Below are positions 56,641 through 64,000 of a stretch of 64,000 bases of DNA, in pieces (the stretch's first letter is position 1; every line of letters starts with the position of its first letter). The position numbers were made by a program, and so were the translations under genes. Source of the stretch: an uncultured Clostridia bacterium (GTDB lineage: Bacteria > Bacillota > Clostridia > Oscillospirales > Ruminococcaceae). The stretch covers positions 1 through 64,000 of the forward strand of contig CANQCL010000002.1 in NCBI GenBank assembly GCA_947589215.1, given 5' to 3'. The notes below the pieces were generated by a model. The model had not been told where the DNA came from, did no database searches, and saw only the letters and a program-made list of their open reading frames with translations.

Positions 56641-58896
56641 ATGTTAACAAAATGTAAAATTTTAGTTGCAGAAACGGCAGGCTTTTGTTTTGGTGTAGAC
56701 AGAGCGGTTAAAATAGTGTATAATAATCTAAATAGCCTAAGCAATGTTGTTACATTAGGACCTATTATCCATAATCAAAGCGTTGTTTCCGACTTGGAAA
56801 GCAAAGGTGTAAGCGTTGTAAACGATGTAGACGAAGTAAAGTCAGATCAAACGGTCATTATACGTTCTCACGGCGTTTCGTCTGATGTTTATAAGCGTTT
56901 GAACGAGCTTTCTGTTAATGTTGTAGACGCTACCTGTCCTTTTGTTTCTAAAATCCACAGAATTGTCAGTGAGAAATCTCGCGAGGGTTATCTTGTTGCA
57001 ATTGCAGGGGACAGAACACACCCTGAGGTTATTGGTATCAGCGGACACTGTGAGAGTAAATGTTATGTGTTTTCAGGCATTGATGAGCTGAAGGCGGTTC
57101 TTTCAGAAACCGAAAATGAAAAAATGATCTTCGTTGCTCAGACTACCTTTAACAAGCAGACTTGGAAAAAGTGCAGGGAATACATACATAGCGTCAGAGA
57201 ATCTGCGTTGATTTTCGACACTATCTGCGACGCTACTTCAAAGCGTCAGGAGGAAGCAATAAGTATTGCGTTAAAGTCAGATAAGATGATTATCGTGGGC
57301 GGACGGCACAGTTCTAATACGCTGAAACTTAAGTCTATTTGCTCTGAGTATTGTCCGTGTTATCTGGTTGAGAATGCAGATGAGCTTTATGATTTGGATT
57401 TTGATGGAGTACATTATTTAGGGATTTCTGCCGGTGCATCGACACCGGCGTATATAATAGAGGAGGTTAAACAGACAATGAGCGACATTCTGGAGAACAG
57501 AGAAGAGGAATTTAACTTTGAAGAGGCTATAGAGCAGTCTTTGAAAAAAATATATATAGGAGCAAGGGTAACCGGAACTGTAACTGCTGTAAACAAAACA
57601 GAAGCTTTAGTTGATATCGGCACAAAGCATACCGGCGTTATACCAAAAGATGAGCTTACTGACGATCCGACTAAGTCACCTGAGGATATTGTATCTGTAG
57701 GCGATGAAGTTGAAGTTATTGTTTTAAAGACCAATGACCAGGAAGGTGTAGATACTCTTTCTAAAAAGCAGGTCGACGCTATTGCCGGCTTTGAAAATGT
57801 TGCAAAGGCATATGAGGAAAAAACAATCTTAACAGGCGTTGTCACCAATATTGTAAGACGTGGAGTTTTAGTTTCTACAAACGGCTTTAAGGTGTTTGTT
57901 CCTGCGTCTCAGGCTACTGAAAGACGCAGCGACAGTCTTGATGATTTACTGAATAAAACTGTAGAGTATAAAGTTATTGAGGTCGACAGAAGCAGAAACA
58001 GAGCAGTCGGTTCAATAAGAATTATTGCCAGTGAAAAACGTGCGGAGGAAAGAGCGAAATTCTTTGAGAGCGCTGAAGTCGGTAAAAAAGTAACAGGAAC
58101 TGTCAAGTCTGTAACGGATTACGGCGCATTTGTCGATTTGGGAGGAATAGACGGTCTGGTAAGAAAGGCTGATCTTTCATGGTTAAGAATCAGACATCCT
58201 TCTGATGTTGTTTCTGTCGGTGATGAGATAGAAGTTACAATTAAGAGTATTGACAAAGAAAGCGAGAAGGTCTCGCTTGTATATAAAAAGGATGAAGATA
58301 ATCCTTGGACAATTTTTGATAAGAATTACGGAGTAGGACAAGTTATAACTGTAAAGATAGTTTCTATAACTTCATTCGGAGCATTTGCTCAGATAATTGA
58401 GGGTATTGACGGACTTATTCACATTTCGCAAATTGCCAATCAGAGAGTTGACAATGTTGCTGATATTTTGAGTGTCGGTCAAGAGGTTGAGGTCAAGATA
58501 ACTGAAATCGACGAGGAGAATAAGAGAATCAGTCTCTCCATGAGAGCTTTACTTCCTGAACCTGAAAAGAAAGAGCCTGCTGATGAAGAGGCAGAAGCTG
58601 AAACAAACGCAGAGCCTGAGTCGAATATCGTTTACTCAACTGAGAATCCTCCTGTTGAAGATGACGAGCCTGTAGTGGAGACAGCAGAGGAAACTGTTGA
58701 AGAATCAGCAGAAGATACTGTTGAAGAAAAGGCAGATGAGTCTGTTGAAGTAACTACAGAAGAGGCTGTCGAAGAAAAGGCAGAGGAAACTTCTGACGAA
58801 AAAACAGAAGAACCTGCTGAAAAGCCGACTGAGGAACTCGTTGAAGAAAAGACAGAGGAAACTGTTGAGGAATCGGCAGAAGAAAAGGCAGAATAA
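56641..58896 (+). CDS. ispH-rpsA: IspH fused to ribosomal protein S1
   Basis: A 751-residue bifunctional protein. Residues 1-~280 are 4-hydroxy-3-methylbut-2-enyl diphosphate reductase, the last step of the MEP isoprenoid pathway, with Fe-S Cys in GFCFGV, ATCPFV and ICDATSKRQE, and substrate-site IHNQSVV and RSHGVS. Residues ~300-640 hold four S1-type RNA-binding repeats (TGTVTAVNKTEALVDIG, TGVVTNIVRRGVLVS, GTVKSVTDYGAFVDLGG, VKIVSITSFGAFAQI). A ~115-residue Glu/Thr/Ala-rich tail ends the protein. The fusion itself is known in Clostridia. The tail has no defined fold. Confidence 0.95.
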   Translation: MLTKCKILVAETAGFCFGVDRAVKIVYNNLNSLSNVVTLGPIIHNQSVVSDLESKGVSVVNDVDEVKSDQTVIIRSHGVSSDVYKRLNELSVNVVDATCPFVSKIHRIVSEKSREGYLVAIAGDRTHPEVIGISGHCESKCYVFSGIDELKAVLSETENEKMIFVAQTTFNKQTWKKCREYIHSVRESALIFDTICDATSKRQEEAISIALKSDKMIIVGGRHSSNTLKLKSICSEYCPCYLVENADELYDLDFDGVHYLGISAGASTPAYIIEEVKQTMSDILENREEEFNFEEAIEQSLKKIYIGARVTGTVTAVNKTEALVDIGTKHTGVIPKDELTDDPTKSPEDIVSVGDEVEVIVLKTNDQEGVDTLSKKQVDAIAGFENVAKAYEEKTILTGVVTNIVRRGVLVSTNGFKVFVPASQATERRSDSLDDLLNKTVEYKVIEVDRSRNRAVGSIRIIASEKRAEERAKFFESAEVGKKVTGTVKSVTDYGAFVDLGGIDGLVRKADLSWLRIRHPSDVVSVGDEIEVTIKSIDKESEKVSLVYKKDEDNPWTIFDKNYGVGQVITVKIVSITSFGAFAQIIEGIDGLIHISQIANQRVDNVADILSVGQEVEVKITEIDEENKRISLSMRALLPEPEKKEPADEEAEAETNAEPESNIVYSTENPPVEDDEPVVETAEETVEESAEDTVEEKADESVEVTTEEAVEEKAEETSDEKTEEPAEKPTEELVEEKTEETVEESAEEKAE

Positions 58897-58920
58897 TAAC
58901 TTGAATATGCTTTGATTATC

Positions 58921-58955
58921 AATGGACAGGGTTTTCCTGTCCATTTTTATTTATG
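58921..58955 (+). terminator. ispH-S1 terminator
   Basis: The perfect 9-bp stem ATGGACAGG/CCTGTCCAT (58922-58930 with 58936-58944) is followed by TTTTTATTT. Confidence 0.85.
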
Positions 58956-58959
58956 TTTC

Positions 58960-58988
58960 TTGACAAATTATATAATATGTGATATTAT
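58960..58988 (+). promoter_or_regulatory. Promoter of the ABC exporter leader
   Basis: TTGACA (58960-58965) and TATTAT (58983-58988) are separated by 17 bp, directly after the ispH-S1 terminator. The transcript should start near 58995. Confidence 0.75.
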
Positions 58989-59017
58989 AGCCTCAATATT
59001 TCAAGGGATGTGAAACT

Positions 59018-59071
59018 ATGTGCAAGGCAACTAACTCCAATAATTGTAAATGGGAGGGGGGCTTATTTTAA
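59018..59071 (+). CDS. 17-residue leader peptide or small peptide ahead of the ABC exporter
   Basis: ATG 59018 to TAA 59071 encodes MCKATNSNNCKWEGGLF. The ribosome binding site AAGGGATG (59003-59010) has good spacing. It is the first ORF after the promoter and ends ~45 nt before a terminator hairpin. This fits a regulatory leader peptide for ribosome-mediated attenuation, as for bmrB before the BmrCD exporter in B. subtilis. A secreted or modified Cys-containing peptide exported by the ABC pair is the other option; no maturation enzyme is nearby. Confidence 0.55.
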   Translation: MCKATNSNNCKWEGGLF

Positions 59072-59115
59072 CAGCTCTTATTAGTTATGCACAGAATATC
59101 TCTCTGGTGTATAGG

Positions 59116-59155
59116 GCGTAGTATGCTGTTTTGCGTGCTGCGTTTTTATTTTTTA
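59116..59155 (+). terminator. Leader terminator between the 17-codon ORF and the ABC genes
   Basis: An 11-bp stem with four G-U pairs (59116-59126 with 59133-59143), loop TGTTTT, is followed by a T-rich run TTTTTATTTTTT. Its position 130-165 nt after the promoter and before the exporter genes is that of an attenuator. The upstream TATGCAC/GTGTATA pairing (59096-59113) may compete with it. Confidence 0.6.
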
Positions 59156-59207
59156 ATAACATTTATTATCAATCAAACAAAGTCAAAACTAAAGAGGAGG
59201 GTTTTAT

Positions 59208-59249
59208 TTGACAATTAATTTAATGATAAATATTGTGAAACTGTATTAA
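59208..59249 (+). CDS. 13-residue mini-ORF in the ABC leader
   Basis: TTG 59208 to TAA 59249 encodes MTINLMINIVKLY. It has the strongest ribosome binding site in this leader (GAGGAGGG, 59194-59201) with 6-nt spacing. Its last codons overlap the hairpin CTGTAT/ATACAG (59241-59258). It may be a second leader peptide; chance cannot be excluded. A TTGACA at 59208 could also be part of a second, weaker promoter. Confidence 0.4.
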   Translation: MTINLMINIVKLY

Positions 59250-59303
59250 ATCATACAGTAAATGAAACACCAATCAAAAACAAGAGAAAACATTGGAGGT
59301 ATT

Positions 59304-61169
59304 ATGAGTAAAAAAGACAAAAATAAATCAGTAAAAGAACACTCAATTTTTTCTAACTTCATATATGTTTACAAATATGTATGGAAGTATAAAAAATCAA
59401 TGCTGATTTTGACGCTGTTGTGGATAGCGTCATGTGTATCTTTGAATTATATTTGGAACTTTACGTCAAAGTTTATTATTGATGATGTTATGGCAGGCGC
59501 TTCTGTCAGTTCGCTTATTGCAACTCTGATAATAGCGGGAGTGATAAGTGCAGTTACAAATTTCGGGGCTCAGGGAATTGATTATTTGTGGTGGCCGAGA
59601 GCACATTTCATTACTTTTAAATTTGTAACAAGATACAACCAAAAATTTATGACAATGAGATATGAACATCTCGAAAGACCAGAAATTCTTGACAAAGCTG
59701 AAAAGGCAAAAAAAGCTGCCGACTGGGGAGGCTCAGCAGGATTTTTAAATAATTCAAAAATTTTTATGCAGGATGCTGCAAATATTGTTGTTTCTGCGGT
59801 AATTATATGTACGCTTAATCCGCTTTTGCTTATTGTATTTACGGCTACCGGTCTTTTAAAGGCATATATGAATGTTAAAACCAAGAAAGAGGACAAAAGA
59901 CTTTGCTGGGATAATATGGCGCCTTTTAATCGTAAGATAAGGTATTTAGGTCAGGTTCAAAGCGACTTTTCATTCGCAAAGGACATAAGAATCTACAATA
60001 TGCGTTCTTTTCTGAAATCAAAGCATACTTCGGTAAATAATCAGGCACATAAGCTGTTTATAGGTCATAAAAACAGGTGGCTTAAATGGGAAATGAAAAA
60101 TTATGTGGTAACGCTTTTTGAAACTTTATTTCAGTATGGTTACTTGATTTTTATGCTTGTAAACGGCAATCTTGAGCTTGGAAACTTTGTATTATATTCA
60201 ACGATTATAAACAATTATACAATGTTTTTGAGAACGACATTTGTTATGTATTCTGAAATGAAACAGAATTCTATGGAAATAGATGATTTTCGTGACTTTG
60301 TAGACGATGACTCAACAAATGACGTTTCGGAAAACACAAAGCCTGTTCCAAAGGCAGACAGCTATGAAATCGAATTTAAAAATGTGTCGTTTAAGTATTA
60401 CGGTCAGGAAAAGTATGCTCTTAAAAATCTTAGCCTAAAACTGACGCCCGGTAAAACGCTTGCGATAGTCGGTTTAAACGGTGCGGGCAAGACAACATTT
60501 ATAAAGCTTCTGTGCAGAATATACGATGTAACAGAGGGGCAGATCCTTTTAAACGGAGTTGATGTAAGAGAGTATGACCGTTTGGATTATTTTAAGATAT
60601 TCAGCCCTGTATTTCAGAATGTCGAGATGTTTGCTCTTAATTTGGGTGAAAACGTCGCAATGCTTCCTGATAAGAGAGTGGAGAGTGACAAAACGGTCAG
60701 AGTTTTAAAGGCATCGGGACTTAGTGATAAACTGAAGTCAATGAAAGACGGTCTTAAAACTCAGATGACTAAGGTAATTTACGATGAGGGTATAGATTTA
60801 TCAGGCGGAGAAAAGCAAAAGCTGTCGCTTGCAAAGGCGCTTTACAAAGACGCTCCTATAGTTCTTTTAGATGAGCCGACAGCGGCTCTTGACCCGCTGG
60901 CTGAGTATGAGCTTTATCAGTCGTTTGATGAGATAATCAAGGGAAAGACCGCTGTCTATATTTCTCACAGACTTTCGTCTACAAGGTTCTGTGATAACAT
61001 TGCTATGTTTGAAAACGGCAGTCTTATTGAGTATGGCACTCACGACTCGCTTTTAAAAAGCGGAGGAGCTTATGCACATTTGTTTGAAGTGCAGGCTCAG
61101 TATTATAAGGAGGAGCAGAAGAAAAAAGAAATGGAGGCTTATGAAAGCGAGGTGGCTTTCAGTGAGTAA
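59304..61169 (+). CDS. ABC exporter half-transporter, subunit 1
   Basis: A 621-residue fused membrane-ATPase protein. The start is the ATG at 59304 behind TTGGAGGT; an ATG at 59262 lacks a binding site. The membrane domain covers residues ~25-330 with about six helices. The ATPase has Walker A GLNGAGKTTFIKLL near residue 395, the intact signature DLSGGEKQKLSLAKAL, Walker B IVLLDEPTAALDP and the H-loop SHRLSS. Its stop overlaps the start of subunit 2. Together they resemble heterodimeric drug or peptide exporters. The substrate is unknown. Confidence 0.9.
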   Translation: MSKKDKNKSVKEHSIFSNFIYVYKYVWKYKKSMLILTLLWIASCVSLNYIWNFTSKFIIDDVMAGASVSSLIATLIIAGVISAVTNFGAQGIDYLWWPRAHFITFKFVTRYNQKFMTMRYEHLERPEILDKAEKAKKAADWGGSAGFLNNSKIFMQDAANIVVSAVIICTLNPLLLIVFTATGLLKAYMNVKTKKEDKRLCWDNMAPFNRKIRYLGQVQSDFSFAKDIRIYNMRSFLKSKHTSVNNQAHKLFIGHKNRWLKWEMKNYVVTLFETLFQYGYLIFMLVNGNLELGNFVLYSTIINNYTMFLRTTFVMYSEMKQNSMEIDDFRDFVDDDSTNDVSENTKPVPKADSYEIEFKNVSFKYYGQEKYALKNLSLKLTPGKTLAIVGLNGAGKTTFIKLLCRIYDVTEGQILLNGVDVREYDRLDYFKIFSPVFQNVEMFALNLGENVAMLPDKRVESDKTVRVLKASGLSDKLKSMKDGLKTQMTKVIYDEGIDLSGGEKQKLSLAKALYKDAPIVLLDEPTAALDPLAEYELYQSFDEIIKGKTAVYISHRLSSTRFCDNIAMFENGSLIEYGTHDSLLKSGGAYAHLFEVQAQYYKEEQKKKEMEAYESEVAFSE

Positions 61170-62958
61170 GAAAAAAGTAAAGATAAGCGATTTAAAAAAG
61201 AGCTTTATAACATTAAAATATTTTTACAGTATTATATTTAGAAAATTTAAAAGCTACATAGTGTTCAATCTGATAGCGGCTGTTATGAGGTCTGTATATC
61301 CGTTATTTATAGTGTTTTTGCCAAAGCTGCTTATCGACGAATTCCAGTCGGGCAGAAATATAAAGCGTATGGTAATTATAACTCTAGTATTTGTAATAGC
61401 ATACATTATGGTTATGGCGATTGACTCATTTTGCACTCAGACATATCAGAAGAAGGTAGATGAGTTCACGAGATATTTTGAAATGCAGCACAAGCAGAAA
61501 TGTGCAGAGATGGATTTCGACCTAACGGAAGACCCCAAAATACTTGACCTAGCCTCAAAGGCTCAGAACGGTCTGGACTGGTACGGCGGAGTTGACGGCT
61601 TTATGACCCAATTTACAAATATGGTTTCTGGTTTTCTTTCTATTCTTTCAACAGGAGCGGTGCTGTTCACAGGTTCTGTGTGGGTTATTTTGATTTCAAT
61701 AACTGTTCTGGTTCTTAATTTTCTGATTACAAATAAATCAAAAAGCATTGTGAGAAAGCAAAATGAAGATACAGCAATTCTCGACAGAAAGCTCAACTAC
61801 AACTTTTGGCAGTCTTATGATTTTAAATATGGCAAGGACATAAGGCTTTATGATGCGTCGGATATGCTTATAAATAACTGTAATGAGGTCGCTGATGAAT
61901 TTATCGACGTAGTAAGAGTTGGAAACAATAAAATAGCAGGGCTGTCAGGTATCTCTTCTATTATTAATACTGTAAACAGTGTCGGAATGTACGGGATTTT
62001 AGGTTTAATGGCTATAAATAAGCTAATCACGATAGGTAATTTCACTATGTATGCTTCTGCGGCAAGTCAGTTTACAAACGGTATGATGTCAACAATTGGC
62101 TCTTTGCAAAATCTGTTTATGGTTTCTACATATTTGTATAACTATGTCGATTTTATGGGAATTAAAACAGATTCAGCGTTCGGAAACGACCTCATTGACA
62201 AAAACGGCAAGCATACTATTGAATTTAAAGATGTGTGGTTTAAATATCCGAGAACGGATAAGTATGTTCTGCAAGGCGTTAATATTAAGATAAACAGCGG
62301 TGAAAAGCTGTCTATTGTTGGGCTGAACGGAGCAGGCAAGACTACATTTATAAAGCTTCTATGCCGTTTGTACAAGGTAGACAAGGGAGAGATACTCATA
62401 GACGGCAAGAACATAAACAGTTACGATTTTGACGAGTATGAGTATCTTTTCTCGGTCGTGTTTCAGGATTTCAAGCTGTTTGCGTTTTCCATTAAAGAGA
62501 ATGTGTCTATAAGTGAGAACCCAAATGATGAAAGGGTACAGAATCTTTGTGAGAAGGTCGGGCTCGGAGATAAAATAGCCTCTTTGGATAAGGGTATTGA
62601 AACTTCGCTTTTCAGACAGTTTGACAAAGAGGGAATAGAGCCGTCGGGCGGCGAACAGCAAAAGATGAGTATTGCAAGAGCGTTATACAAAGATTCGCCA
62701 ATCGTTATTTTAGACGAGCCGACAGCGGCACTCGACCCTGTTGCAGAGTATGAAATATACAGGCAGTTCAACGGCTTTGTCGAGAGCAAAACGGCTATAT
62801 ATATTTCTCACAGGCTTTCAAGCTGCAGGTTTTGCGATAGAATAGCCGTATTCTCGGGAAACAATATCGCAGAATACGGAACACACGATGAGCTTGTGAG
62901 CATTGAAAACGGTATATATTCAAAAATGTGGAAAGCTCAGGCACAGTATTATGCTTAA
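61162..62958 (+). CDS. ABC exporter half-transporter, subunit 2
   Basis: A 598-residue partner of subunit 1. The start is placed at GTG 61162, overlapping the previous stop by 8 bp (GTGAGTAA) with GAGGTGG upstream; ATG 61141 behind GGAGG is a good alternative. It has a membrane domain of about six helices, then Walker A GLNGAGKTTFIKLL. The signature reads EPSGGEQQKMSIARAL, with Pro where Leu is usual. The end has Walker B VILDEPTAALDP and SHRLSS. The changed signature suggests the two ATP sites are not equal, as in other heterodimeric exporters. Confidence 0.9.
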   Translation: MSKKKVKISDLKKSFITLKYFYSIIFRKFKSYIVFNLIAAVMRSVYPLFIVFLPKLLIDEFQSGRNIKRMVIITLVFVIAYIMVMAIDSFCTQTYQKKVDEFTRYFEMQHKQKCAEMDFDLTEDPKILDLASKAQNGLDWYGGVDGFMTQFTNMVSGFLSILSTGAVLFTGSVWVILISITVLVLNFLITNKSKSIVRKQNEDTAILDRKLNYNFWQSYDFKYGKDIRLYDASDMLINNCNEVADEFIDVVRVGNNKIAGLSGISSIINTVNSVGMYGILGLMAINKLITIGNFTMYASAASQFTNGMMSTIGSLQNLFMVSTYLYNYVDFMGIKTDSAFGNDLIDKNGKHTIEFKDVWFKYPRTDKYVLQGVNIKINSGEKLSIVGLNGAGKTTFIKLLCRLYKVDKGEILIDGKNINSYDFDEYEYLFSVVFQDFKLFAFSIKENVSISENPNDERVQNLCEKVGLGDKIASLDKGIETSLFRQFDKEGIEPSGGEQQKMSIARALYKDSPIVILDEPTAALDPVAEYEIYRQFNGFVESKTAIYISHRLSSCRFCDRIAVFSGNNIAEYGTHDELVSIENGIYSKMWKAQAQYYA

Positions 62959-62967
62959 TATTTCTAG

Positions 62968-62998
62968 AACGCCCCAATTGGGGCGTTTATACTTTTTG
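62968..62998 (+). terminator. ABC exporter terminator
   Basis: The perfect 8-bp stem AACGCCCC/GGGGCGTT (62968-62975 with 62980-62987), loop AATT, is followed by TATACTTTTT. Confidence 0.75.
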
Positions 62999-63037
62999 AA
63001 TAAAATAAATAATAAAAAATAATTTTTTTTATAAAAC

Positions 63038-63066
63038 TTGACATTGAGACTTTGATATAATATAAT
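63038..63066 (+). promoter_or_regulatory. Promoter of the GH5 gene
   Basis: TTGACA (63038-63043) and TATAAT (63061-63066) are separated by 17 bp. A second TATAAT overlaps at 63056. The leader is about 55 nt. Confidence 0.75.
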
Positions 63067-63128
63067 CTAAAGCGTAAGTGTAAATATATAAATTTTTTGT
63101 ATATAAATATTTGAAGGTGGATGTATAA

Positions 63129-64000
63129 ATGAGAACTAAGAAAGTGTTTGCTTGTATATTAGCAACCTGTACAATGCTGGGTTCTTTGTCAATGCAGGGT
63201 ATATCAACTGTTACGGGAATGGCTGACGACGGAGTAATGCGTGACGATATGACAGCGCAGGACTATGCCGACGATATGGGACTTGGAATTAATTTGGGTA
63301 ATACAATGGAGGCATACTATCTTGACTTAAACAAACAATATTCTGGTGCGCAGTCTATAGGCAGAAATAAGCCTGAGAATTATGAAACCTGCTGGGGGGC
63401 TGTTGAAACTACTCAAGCAGCTATCAGAGGAATGAAAAATGTTGGCTTCAAAACTGTCAGAATACCTGTATATTGGGGCAACATGATGAAGGAAGACGGA
63501 ACATATACTATAAATTCAGAATATATAGGCAGAGTTAAGGAAATAGTAGATTACTGTCGTAATGCAGGAGTTTATGCTGTTATAAATATGCATCATTATG
63601 ATGAATTTGTAATAAGACATTTTTCAACCTTTGGAACTTTGGAAGAATGTGCTGAAACTGTCAAACATCTCTGGACGCAGATTGCAAATTATTTCAAAGA
63701 TTATTCTGATTATCTTATTTTTGAAGGCTTTAATGAATATTTAGGCGGCGGTCCTTATGAGCTTGATAAAAACGGTAAAATTGCACTCGACAGCAAAGGT
63801 GATGCTAAAATTCTTAATCTTTCCACTGAAGATGCTTACAAGTGGACAAATACTTTAAATCAGGCATTTGTAGACGCGGTAAGAGCTACCGGCGGAAATA
63901 ATGAAAAGAGAATGCTTGTTGTTTCAGGTTATTGGACAAATATTGACAACACGACCAAATCATCGTTCATTGTGCCCACTGATTCAGCTAAAGACAGATT
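63129..64000 (+). CDS. Secreted GH5 endoglucanase-like glycoside hydrolase (3' truncated)
   Basis: The ORF opens at ATG 63129 behind GAAGGTGG and runs off the window after 290 codons. Residues 1-~30 are a signal peptide (Arg/Lys start, CILATCTMLGSLSM core). The GH5 barrel then shows GLGINLGNTMEAYY, KTVRIPVYWG, INMHHYDE and FEGFNEYLGG, where Glu203 is the expected acid/base. The nucleophile Glu should lie beyond residue 290, outside the window. The likely activity is endo-beta-1,4-glucanase or a related beta-glucan/xyloglucan hydrolase. Dockerin or CBM modules cannot be judged from this part. Confidence 0.88.
   Translation, partial: MRTKKVFACILATCTMLGSLSMQGISTVTGMADDGVMRDDMTAQDYADDMGLGINLGNTMEAYYLDLNKQYSGAQSIGRNKPENYETCWGAVETTQAAIRGMKNVGFKTVRIPVYWGNMMKEDGTYTINSEYIGRVKEIVDYCRNAGVYAVINMHHYDEFVIRHFSTFGTLEECAETVKHLWTQIANYFKDYSDYLIFEGFNEYLGGGPYELDKNGKIALDSKGDAKILNLSTEDAYKWTNTLNQAFVDAVRATGGNNEKRMLVVSGYWTNIDNTTKSSFIVPTDSAKDR

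Follow-up and report, generated by a model that had tools for sequence, protein, structure and literature searches.

The window, by which we mean the whole 64,000-nt stretch analysed here from an uncultured Clostridia bacterium, contains two overlapping genes for ABC half-exporters, preceded by a compact leader region (Table 1). Both subunits match MsbA- and P-glycoprotein-type exporters, and on reading both carry canonical versions of what we take to be the Walker B motif (LLDEPTAALD and ILDEPTAALD) and the signature motif. Pairs of the BmrC/BmrD type have a degenerate ATP site, which is not seen here since the motifs of both subunits are canonical. When both exporter proteins were compared with NCBIfam, all models among the 25 matches listed for each scored below their cut-offs. 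Near-identical exporter loci are present in uncultured Clostridia MAGs from isolates named 'Lapin', and as this is French for rabbit, a rabbit-gut origin of these MAGs is suggested. The gene upstream of the leader (window positions 56641-58896, 751 aa) looks on reading like a fusion of IspH (LytB) with an S1 domain and has a long, acidic, repeat-like C-terminus.

A preliminary description made from the DNA letters had reported a TTGACA-17-TATTAT promoter, a 17-codon ORF with a good ribosome binding site, and an 11-bp hairpin with a T-rich run ahead of a heterodimeric exporter. Our analysis recovered the promoter, with an extended -10 TG, the ORF behind an SD-like AAGGGA, and the two exporter genes; the hairpin and its T-rich tail are likewise in place, with 14 pairs in the stem instead of 11. 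That description had overlooked the G-rich run inside the ORF, a tiny second ORF (ORF2) ahead of the exporter, and the relatives of the leader dispersed elsewhere. Nine promoter-like sites were found in a 601-base stretch, against 3.1 in shuffles, and the exact promoter pattern occurred 15 times in the 1.98 Mb, 28-contig genome, against 2 occurrences of the reversed control. Two terminator-like sites were found where 0.2 were expected, the second lying directly after the upstream gene (58921-58945).

Table 1. Features of the leader and exporter region, in window coordinates
Feature	Coordinates	Strand	Evidence or score
Sigma-70 type promoter, TTGACA-17-TATTAT, extended -10 TG	58960..58988	+	score 11/12
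Conserved leader element, from the SD to past the TGCACA strand	59000..59111	+	covariance model R1, 87.7 bits, E 3e-17 (not independent: the window is among the 29 training sequences)
Leader ORF1, 17 codons, MCKATNSNNCKWEGGLF then stop; short frame	59018..59071	+	
G-rich run GGGAGGGGGG inside ORF1, interrupted equivalent of the family G tract	59052..59061	+	
TGCACA strand with 3' flank (ATATCTCTC), pairing with the start codon region and SD (helices P1 and P0)	59088..59105	+	folds, partner-swap test
Intrinsic terminator hairpin with T-rich tail, 14 pairs (5 G-C)	59113..59146	+	
TAG ending the alternative (long) leader frame, within the terminator 5' arm	59119..59121	+	
ORF2, 13 codons, MTIKLMRNMVKLY-type; TTG start in the window, ATG in relatives	59208..59249	+	
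ABC half-exporter 1, 621 aa, ATG start behind GGAGG	59304..61169	+	
ABC half-exporter 2, 598 aa, GTG start, overlapping half-exporter 1	61162..62958	+	

A DNA search with the window leader retrieved relatives at unrelated places in genomes, and reading them revealed a common plan: a TTGAC-type promoter, an SD, a start of ATG-TGC or ATG-TAC, 30-39 nt, a G tract, a small hairpin, a TGCACA strand some 22-27 nt past the tract, and a terminator often beginning AGGGCGTAGTATGC. A covariance model (R1) built from 29 leaders, which themselves match by construction, gave 64 matches in 12 of the 15 genomes of the genus, with 1 to 13 copies in each of these 12 and 11 in the window's own genome. The simple pattern of 9 G's, 12-42 nt and TGYACA matched 10 of the 15 genus genomes, and its reversed control 1. 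Further afield the leader thins out. At family level R1 gave 24 matches at E 0.01, weak ones included, in 10 of 247 genomes, and at order level (E 0.001) it matched in 4 of 394. The pattern search across the family matched 24 of 396 genomes, 19 of them outside the genus; all the matched outside-genus loci (L139-L160) were read, and five are look-alikes (L146, L147, L151, L153 and L157), most others having the appearance of chance. Clear members outside the genus are those of G184, G264, G215 and G195, together with G426, whose G runs are short, and G409 and G312, recognised by pattern. Five weak R1 matches were set aside, namely G158 and G265, which look unrelated, G149 and G178, with a tract near a gene start and no leader plan, and G646, in which no terminator was seen. 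The window leader belongs to a dispersed family whose members are rare beyond the genus.

We examined 69 copies, the 71 model matches minus G003:C40 and G002:C2. An SD-like string precedes the start in 57 of them, and the best promoter score is at least 10/12 in 60, a level reached by 4.8% of mononucleotide shuffles. A mobile-element origin of the window leader was considered and rejected, a plasmid search having returned 12 records with short matches only (E 0.3-4); the poly-G pattern had no match among viral contigs.

A run of at least 9 G's lies within the leader ORF in 58 of the 69 copies, the other 11 lacking such a run, and where there is a tract it lies 30-39 nt past the start codon. 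In the window's genome all 11 runs of a non-G followed by 9 G's fall within these leaders, nine by the model and two, contig-end copies on C27 and C9, by reading. Across the genus 64 of 100 such runs were counted as leaders, by model or reading, with 10 of the 100 unread (4 of 12 in G008 and 6 of 11 in G006, two genomes without a model match), and other runs lie in promoter spacers or reading frames. Tract lengths in 54 copies were 9 (20 copies), 10 (12, the window included), 11 (15), 12 (5), 8 (1) and 25 (1), each taken from an assembled genome, which shows a single length for a locus. A tract length is often common to similar paralogs, most located copies in G002 having 11 G's and the located copies in G004 having 9, so the tracts may be fairly stable, or the copies may have been homogenised or collapsed in assembly. 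The single tract counted as 25 G's (L210, G010:C13), or 26 when read directly, is either a real expansion or an assembly artefact.

Poly-G runs outside the leaders deserve mention in their own right. Two 9-G runs (L262, G001:C4, and L302, G014:C5) sit in the spacer that separates TTGACA from TATAAT, the arrangement seen in promoter-spacer phase variation, and four loci (L276, L297, L298 and L308) have runs of 9-10 G's in reading frames that on reading resemble surface-polysaccharide or modification enzymes, which suggests a wider poly-G phase variation in the genus. At L149/L167 (G178) and L145 (G179) a poly-G run with TGCACA-like context falls within the opening codons of a gene for a secreted protein or of some other small gene, and the tract there is not ahead of a terminator.

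The genes behind the leaders are diverse and include unrelated, non-transporter genes for surface proteins, regulators and a few enzymes. Among 17 downstream proteins scanned against Pfam, five were BspA-type LRR proteins, one FctA/Cna_B, two LytTR, one a receiver plus HD protein, and one each VTC, acyltransferase, fn3 and a weak RHS; four matched nothing.

To describe how the leader frames relate to the terminator, the stop of the ORF was computed in each of the three frames past the tract for all 69 copies. With filters on tract and position, a hairpin with T run was located in 55 copies. One of these (G002:C48) proved mis-located and was dropped, which reduced the copies from 55 to 54 and the representatives below 70% identity from 15 to 14; with it kept, 14 of 15 representatives reach the terminator. 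G000:C22, near a contig end and with no usable terminator, was left out. The representatives were compared with dinucleotide shuffles and treated as independent. In all 14 the ORF is open from start to tract (shuffle P 1e-6), and the terminator is reached in one frame or more (9.8 expected, P 0.004). In 13 a single frame reaches it (6.7 expected, P 5e-4), in the fourteenth two do, and in 11 there is one such frame and it also stops no later than the end of the hairpin (4.0 expected, P about 1e-4). This excess over shuffles is solid but not huge, with shared descent only partly removed. The stops typically fall 5, 13 and 72 nt past the tract where the terminator is at 63, or 37, 12 and 71 nt past it where the terminator is at 62; in the G012 C5 subfamily two of the frames are long. 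In the window the present frame stops at 10 nt and the others at 60 and 23 nt, the terminator being at 51, so that the stop at 60 is the TAG within its 5' arm.

The leader RNA is predicted to be structured. The 167-nt window leader folds with z = -3.2, equalled by none of 200 shuffles, and a 150-nt version with z = -2.6, equalled by 3 of 200. Folds of the window, L077 and L151, and not that of L147, have in common an SD-sequestering helix, a helix between the start codon and TGCACA, and a hairpin at the G tract, with single-fold z-scores weak for L077 (-1.3) and the signal absent for L147 (+0.85). The consensus fold retains only the 6-bp P1 helix, and the wider helices rest on the single folds and on a partner-swap test. 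In this test 3' partners were swapped among 18 leaders, and the own pairing was stronger (combined P 5e-5); the SD helix was partner-specific by itself (P 3e-4), and the start-codon helix P1 was not (P 0.14). The own partner ranked first in 7 of the 18 leaders, and 15th and 18th in G264 and G215. The preliminary description had also proposed looking for competing hairpins. For the 5' arm of the terminator, none of 14 leaders had an upstream partner that beat 200 shuffles at 0.05 (lowest fraction 0.13), and direct occlusion by the ribosome therefore fits better than an antiterminator.

The family, its tract, the frame arrangement, the covariation in SD pairing, the terminators and both frame states can be read directly from the assemblies, and they argue with reasonable confidence that the leaders form a family of attenuators whose control of transcription is phase-variable. 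This would be a poly-G form, structured and multi-locus, of the logic described for the pil1 pilus locus. In this model the slippery G run probably acts as a random switch that turns the following gene on or off. A strong promoter would yield a leader RNA whose short ORF crosses a homopolymeric tract of mostly 9-12 G's, and slipped-strand changes in tract length, were they to take place in living cells, would shift the frame beyond it. Two of the three frames would as a rule stop early and the ribosome depart, whereupon the TGCACA strand, together with its 3' flank, would capture the SD and start codon by pairing, and transcription would end at the terminator (OFF). In the remaining frame the ribosome would cross that helix and stop within the terminator's 5' arm or past it, preventing the hairpin from forming and presumably allowing the downstream gene to be transcribed (ON).

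Both frame states are represented among the 54 copies with tract and terminator, 43 being short and 11 long. The short copies stop 13-64 nt ahead of the terminator (41 in the window), and ten of the 43 stop just 13-25 nt ahead, nearer than the 28 nt of low-expressing pil1 isolates (PMC3894217), so that calling these ten OFF is uncertain. In the window's genome the long frame is found at C5:88473, ahead of a pilin-like FctA/Cna_B protein, C10:1322 (no Pfam match), C13:54710, where the contig ends within the gene, and C25:10395 (LRR), and the short frame in the window, C6 (LRR), C10:72173, C12 and C13:38875. Among leaders with the same frame map that precede MKHNKKTIKLNR-type proteins, those of G012 C5 and C15 have 10 G's and a short frame, and that of G000 C10:1322 has 12 G's and a long one; a further leader before a protein of this type, G000 C12, has 12 G's, a different frame map and a short frame. 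Ahead of LytTR genes the leader frame is long in G005, G009 and G013, and G007 has a short one. Copies without a tract likewise occur in both states, long in G002:C9, G001:C1, G007:C22 and, by reading, L281 and L282 of G426, and short in G000:C1, the second copy of G184 and L279.

An attenuator might use the G run in another way, with RNA polymerase pausing on it at low GTP, or the ribosome pausing on GGG glycine codons or a pseudo Shine-Dalgarno, so that nucleotide or amino-acid supply decides termination and tract length is no switch. Pausing of RNA polymerase at low nucleotide supply sets termination in pyrBI-like logic, and the fixed position of the run, the presence of GGG codons in every frame, and the pairing of the run's 3' side when the window, L077 and L151 leaders are folded would suit such sensing. 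However, sensing does not predict that one of three frames be kept open to the terminator, nor that related leaders differ in tract length and frame state, and the Pfam-recognised targets are not glycine or nucleotide genes. We regard it as unlikely. A structured RNA element bound at the poly-G hairpin by a protein or ligand, with the ORF incidental, would account for the conserved spacing, the TGCACA strand and the covariation of the SD helix, but not for an ORF open to the tract in every representative or for frames arranged towards the terminator. Moreover, no Rfam family reached its gathering score over the leader (window positions 57000-64000), and over the leaders of seven loci with other copies there was none either, only tRNAs scoring above gathering; this explanation appears very unlikely.

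The preliminary description had itself proposed a leader-peptide attenuator of the bmrB-bmrCD kind, in which ribosome stalling sensed at the 17-codon ORF induces the exporter in the presence of a drug. A leader ORF and a terminator do stand before an ABC exporter pair, and the open ORF and frequent SD-like strings fit attenuation as such. More distant exporter homologs also have other leader ORFs followed on reading by terminator-like hairpins (MTTLYLLYSQEKTK in L019 with a near copy in L021, and MFVNILNTSNYHYGIFMGKRTLPVLAD in L020), and these are possibly true drug- or amino-acid-sensing attenuators. Drug sensing at the window leader is a different matter, for the leader is not dedicated to drug transporters, many non-transporter genes lying behind its copies, and its peptide, for which an alignment across relatives had been suggested, lacks conservation from one subfamily to another. 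Among the eight same-genus loci that carry a close exporter ortholog, five have the promoter-leader-terminator block (the window, L040, L041, L043 and L048) and three do not (L039, L042 and L044), the leaderless L039 being the nearest in DNA (94.3%) among six full-length exporter genes compared. The leader is not tied to the exporter. In addition, the bmrB terminator lies inside the ORF and has predicted anti-terminators (PMC4191407), unlike the arrangement here, and together these points make exporter induction by a drug at this ORF most unlikely.

What does stay with the exporter is ORF2, kept with some synonymous changes in all eight close exporter loci, the leaderless ones included, and found in 8 of the 15 genus genomes, the same eight that have the close ortholog. 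Overlapping its start in the window is a TTGACA-17-TATTGT site, seen on reading in none of seven aligned relatives, and one may speculate that it bypasses the terminator. The remaining suggestion, that the ABC pair exports the ORF1 product as a secreted signal or antimicrobial peptide, has in its favour that a short ORF preceded by an SD-like string lies beside an exporter, but can be practically dismissed because the C-terminus changes with G-run length (MCKATNSINCKWGGGLI versus MCKATNSINCKWGGA), the sequence is unconserved, and the leader both precedes non-exporter genes and is missing from three close exporter loci.

Applied to the window, phase-variable attenuation predicts an exporter that is mostly OFF from the leader promoter and less switchable than its relatives, given the interrupted tract and the short frame, and this copy may not switch at all, its tract being interrupted. 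For the genus as a whole, we lean towards the view that a dispersed, structured cassette of promoter, SD-sequestering poly-G leader ORF and terminator constitutes a combinatorial phase-variable regulon in these gut Clostridia. Working by attenuation and not by promoter or coding-frame switching, it would set stochastically whether as many as a dozen or so separate loci in each genome are transcribed, among them those for LytTR regulators, the exporter, and pilin-like and BspA-type surface proteins.

Leader-terminator phase variation is described in PMC3894217 for two pilus loci of one species, and among the open-access literature matches listed, judged by titles and abstract openings, poly-G leaders of these bacteria did not appear to be the subject of any paper. 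A homologous family spread across a genome and in several genera would make the attenuation switch a general, reusable cassette in gut commensals. If the model is correct, the ON or OFF state of surface genes would be predictable from sequence in each genome, and mixed surface states in uncultured bacteria could be explained. The locus also advises caution, in that a leader ORF and terminator before an ABC exporter need not signal drug sensing.

Among known systems, the poly-G/poly-C contingency loci of Campylobacter and similar bacteria resemble the present family in having slippery G tracts before or in surface genes. Their tracts lie in the protein-coding frame or the promoter, whereas here the tract lies in a leader ORF and would act through a terminator. 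Bacillus subtilis bmrB-bmrCD (Reilman et al. 2014, PMC4191407) also has a leader ORF and an intrinsic terminator before an ABC half-exporter pair, with the terminator inside the ORF and predicted anti-terminator structures. In contrast, no antiterminator was found here, the terminator lies beyond the short ORF, and the leader, its peptide not conserved, is common to non-transporter genes. Judged by sequence, the closest likeness is to the pil1 (and pil3) leaders of Streptococcus gallolyticus. Danne et al. 2014 (PMC3894217) showed that out-of-frame changes in GCAGA repeats produce a longer leader peptide there, and that the ribosome translating it disrupts the premature terminator, which accounts for phase variation of the pilus; isolates in which the leader ended 28 nt or more ahead of the terminator had a low-expressing majority. 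Both have a simple sequence repeat in a leader ORF whose repeat number sets the frame, an intrinsic terminator between leader and gene, a short frame ending before that terminator (low expression in pil1) and a long one ending in or beyond it (high), and surface-protein targets, which here include the pilin-like FctA/Cna_B protein. The present family differs in its homopolymeric G tract in place of GCAGA pentamers, in its 1 to 13 model matches per positive genus genome against the two loci of that study, in an SD-sequestering helix with covariation, and in having LytTR regulators and an ABC exporter among its targets.
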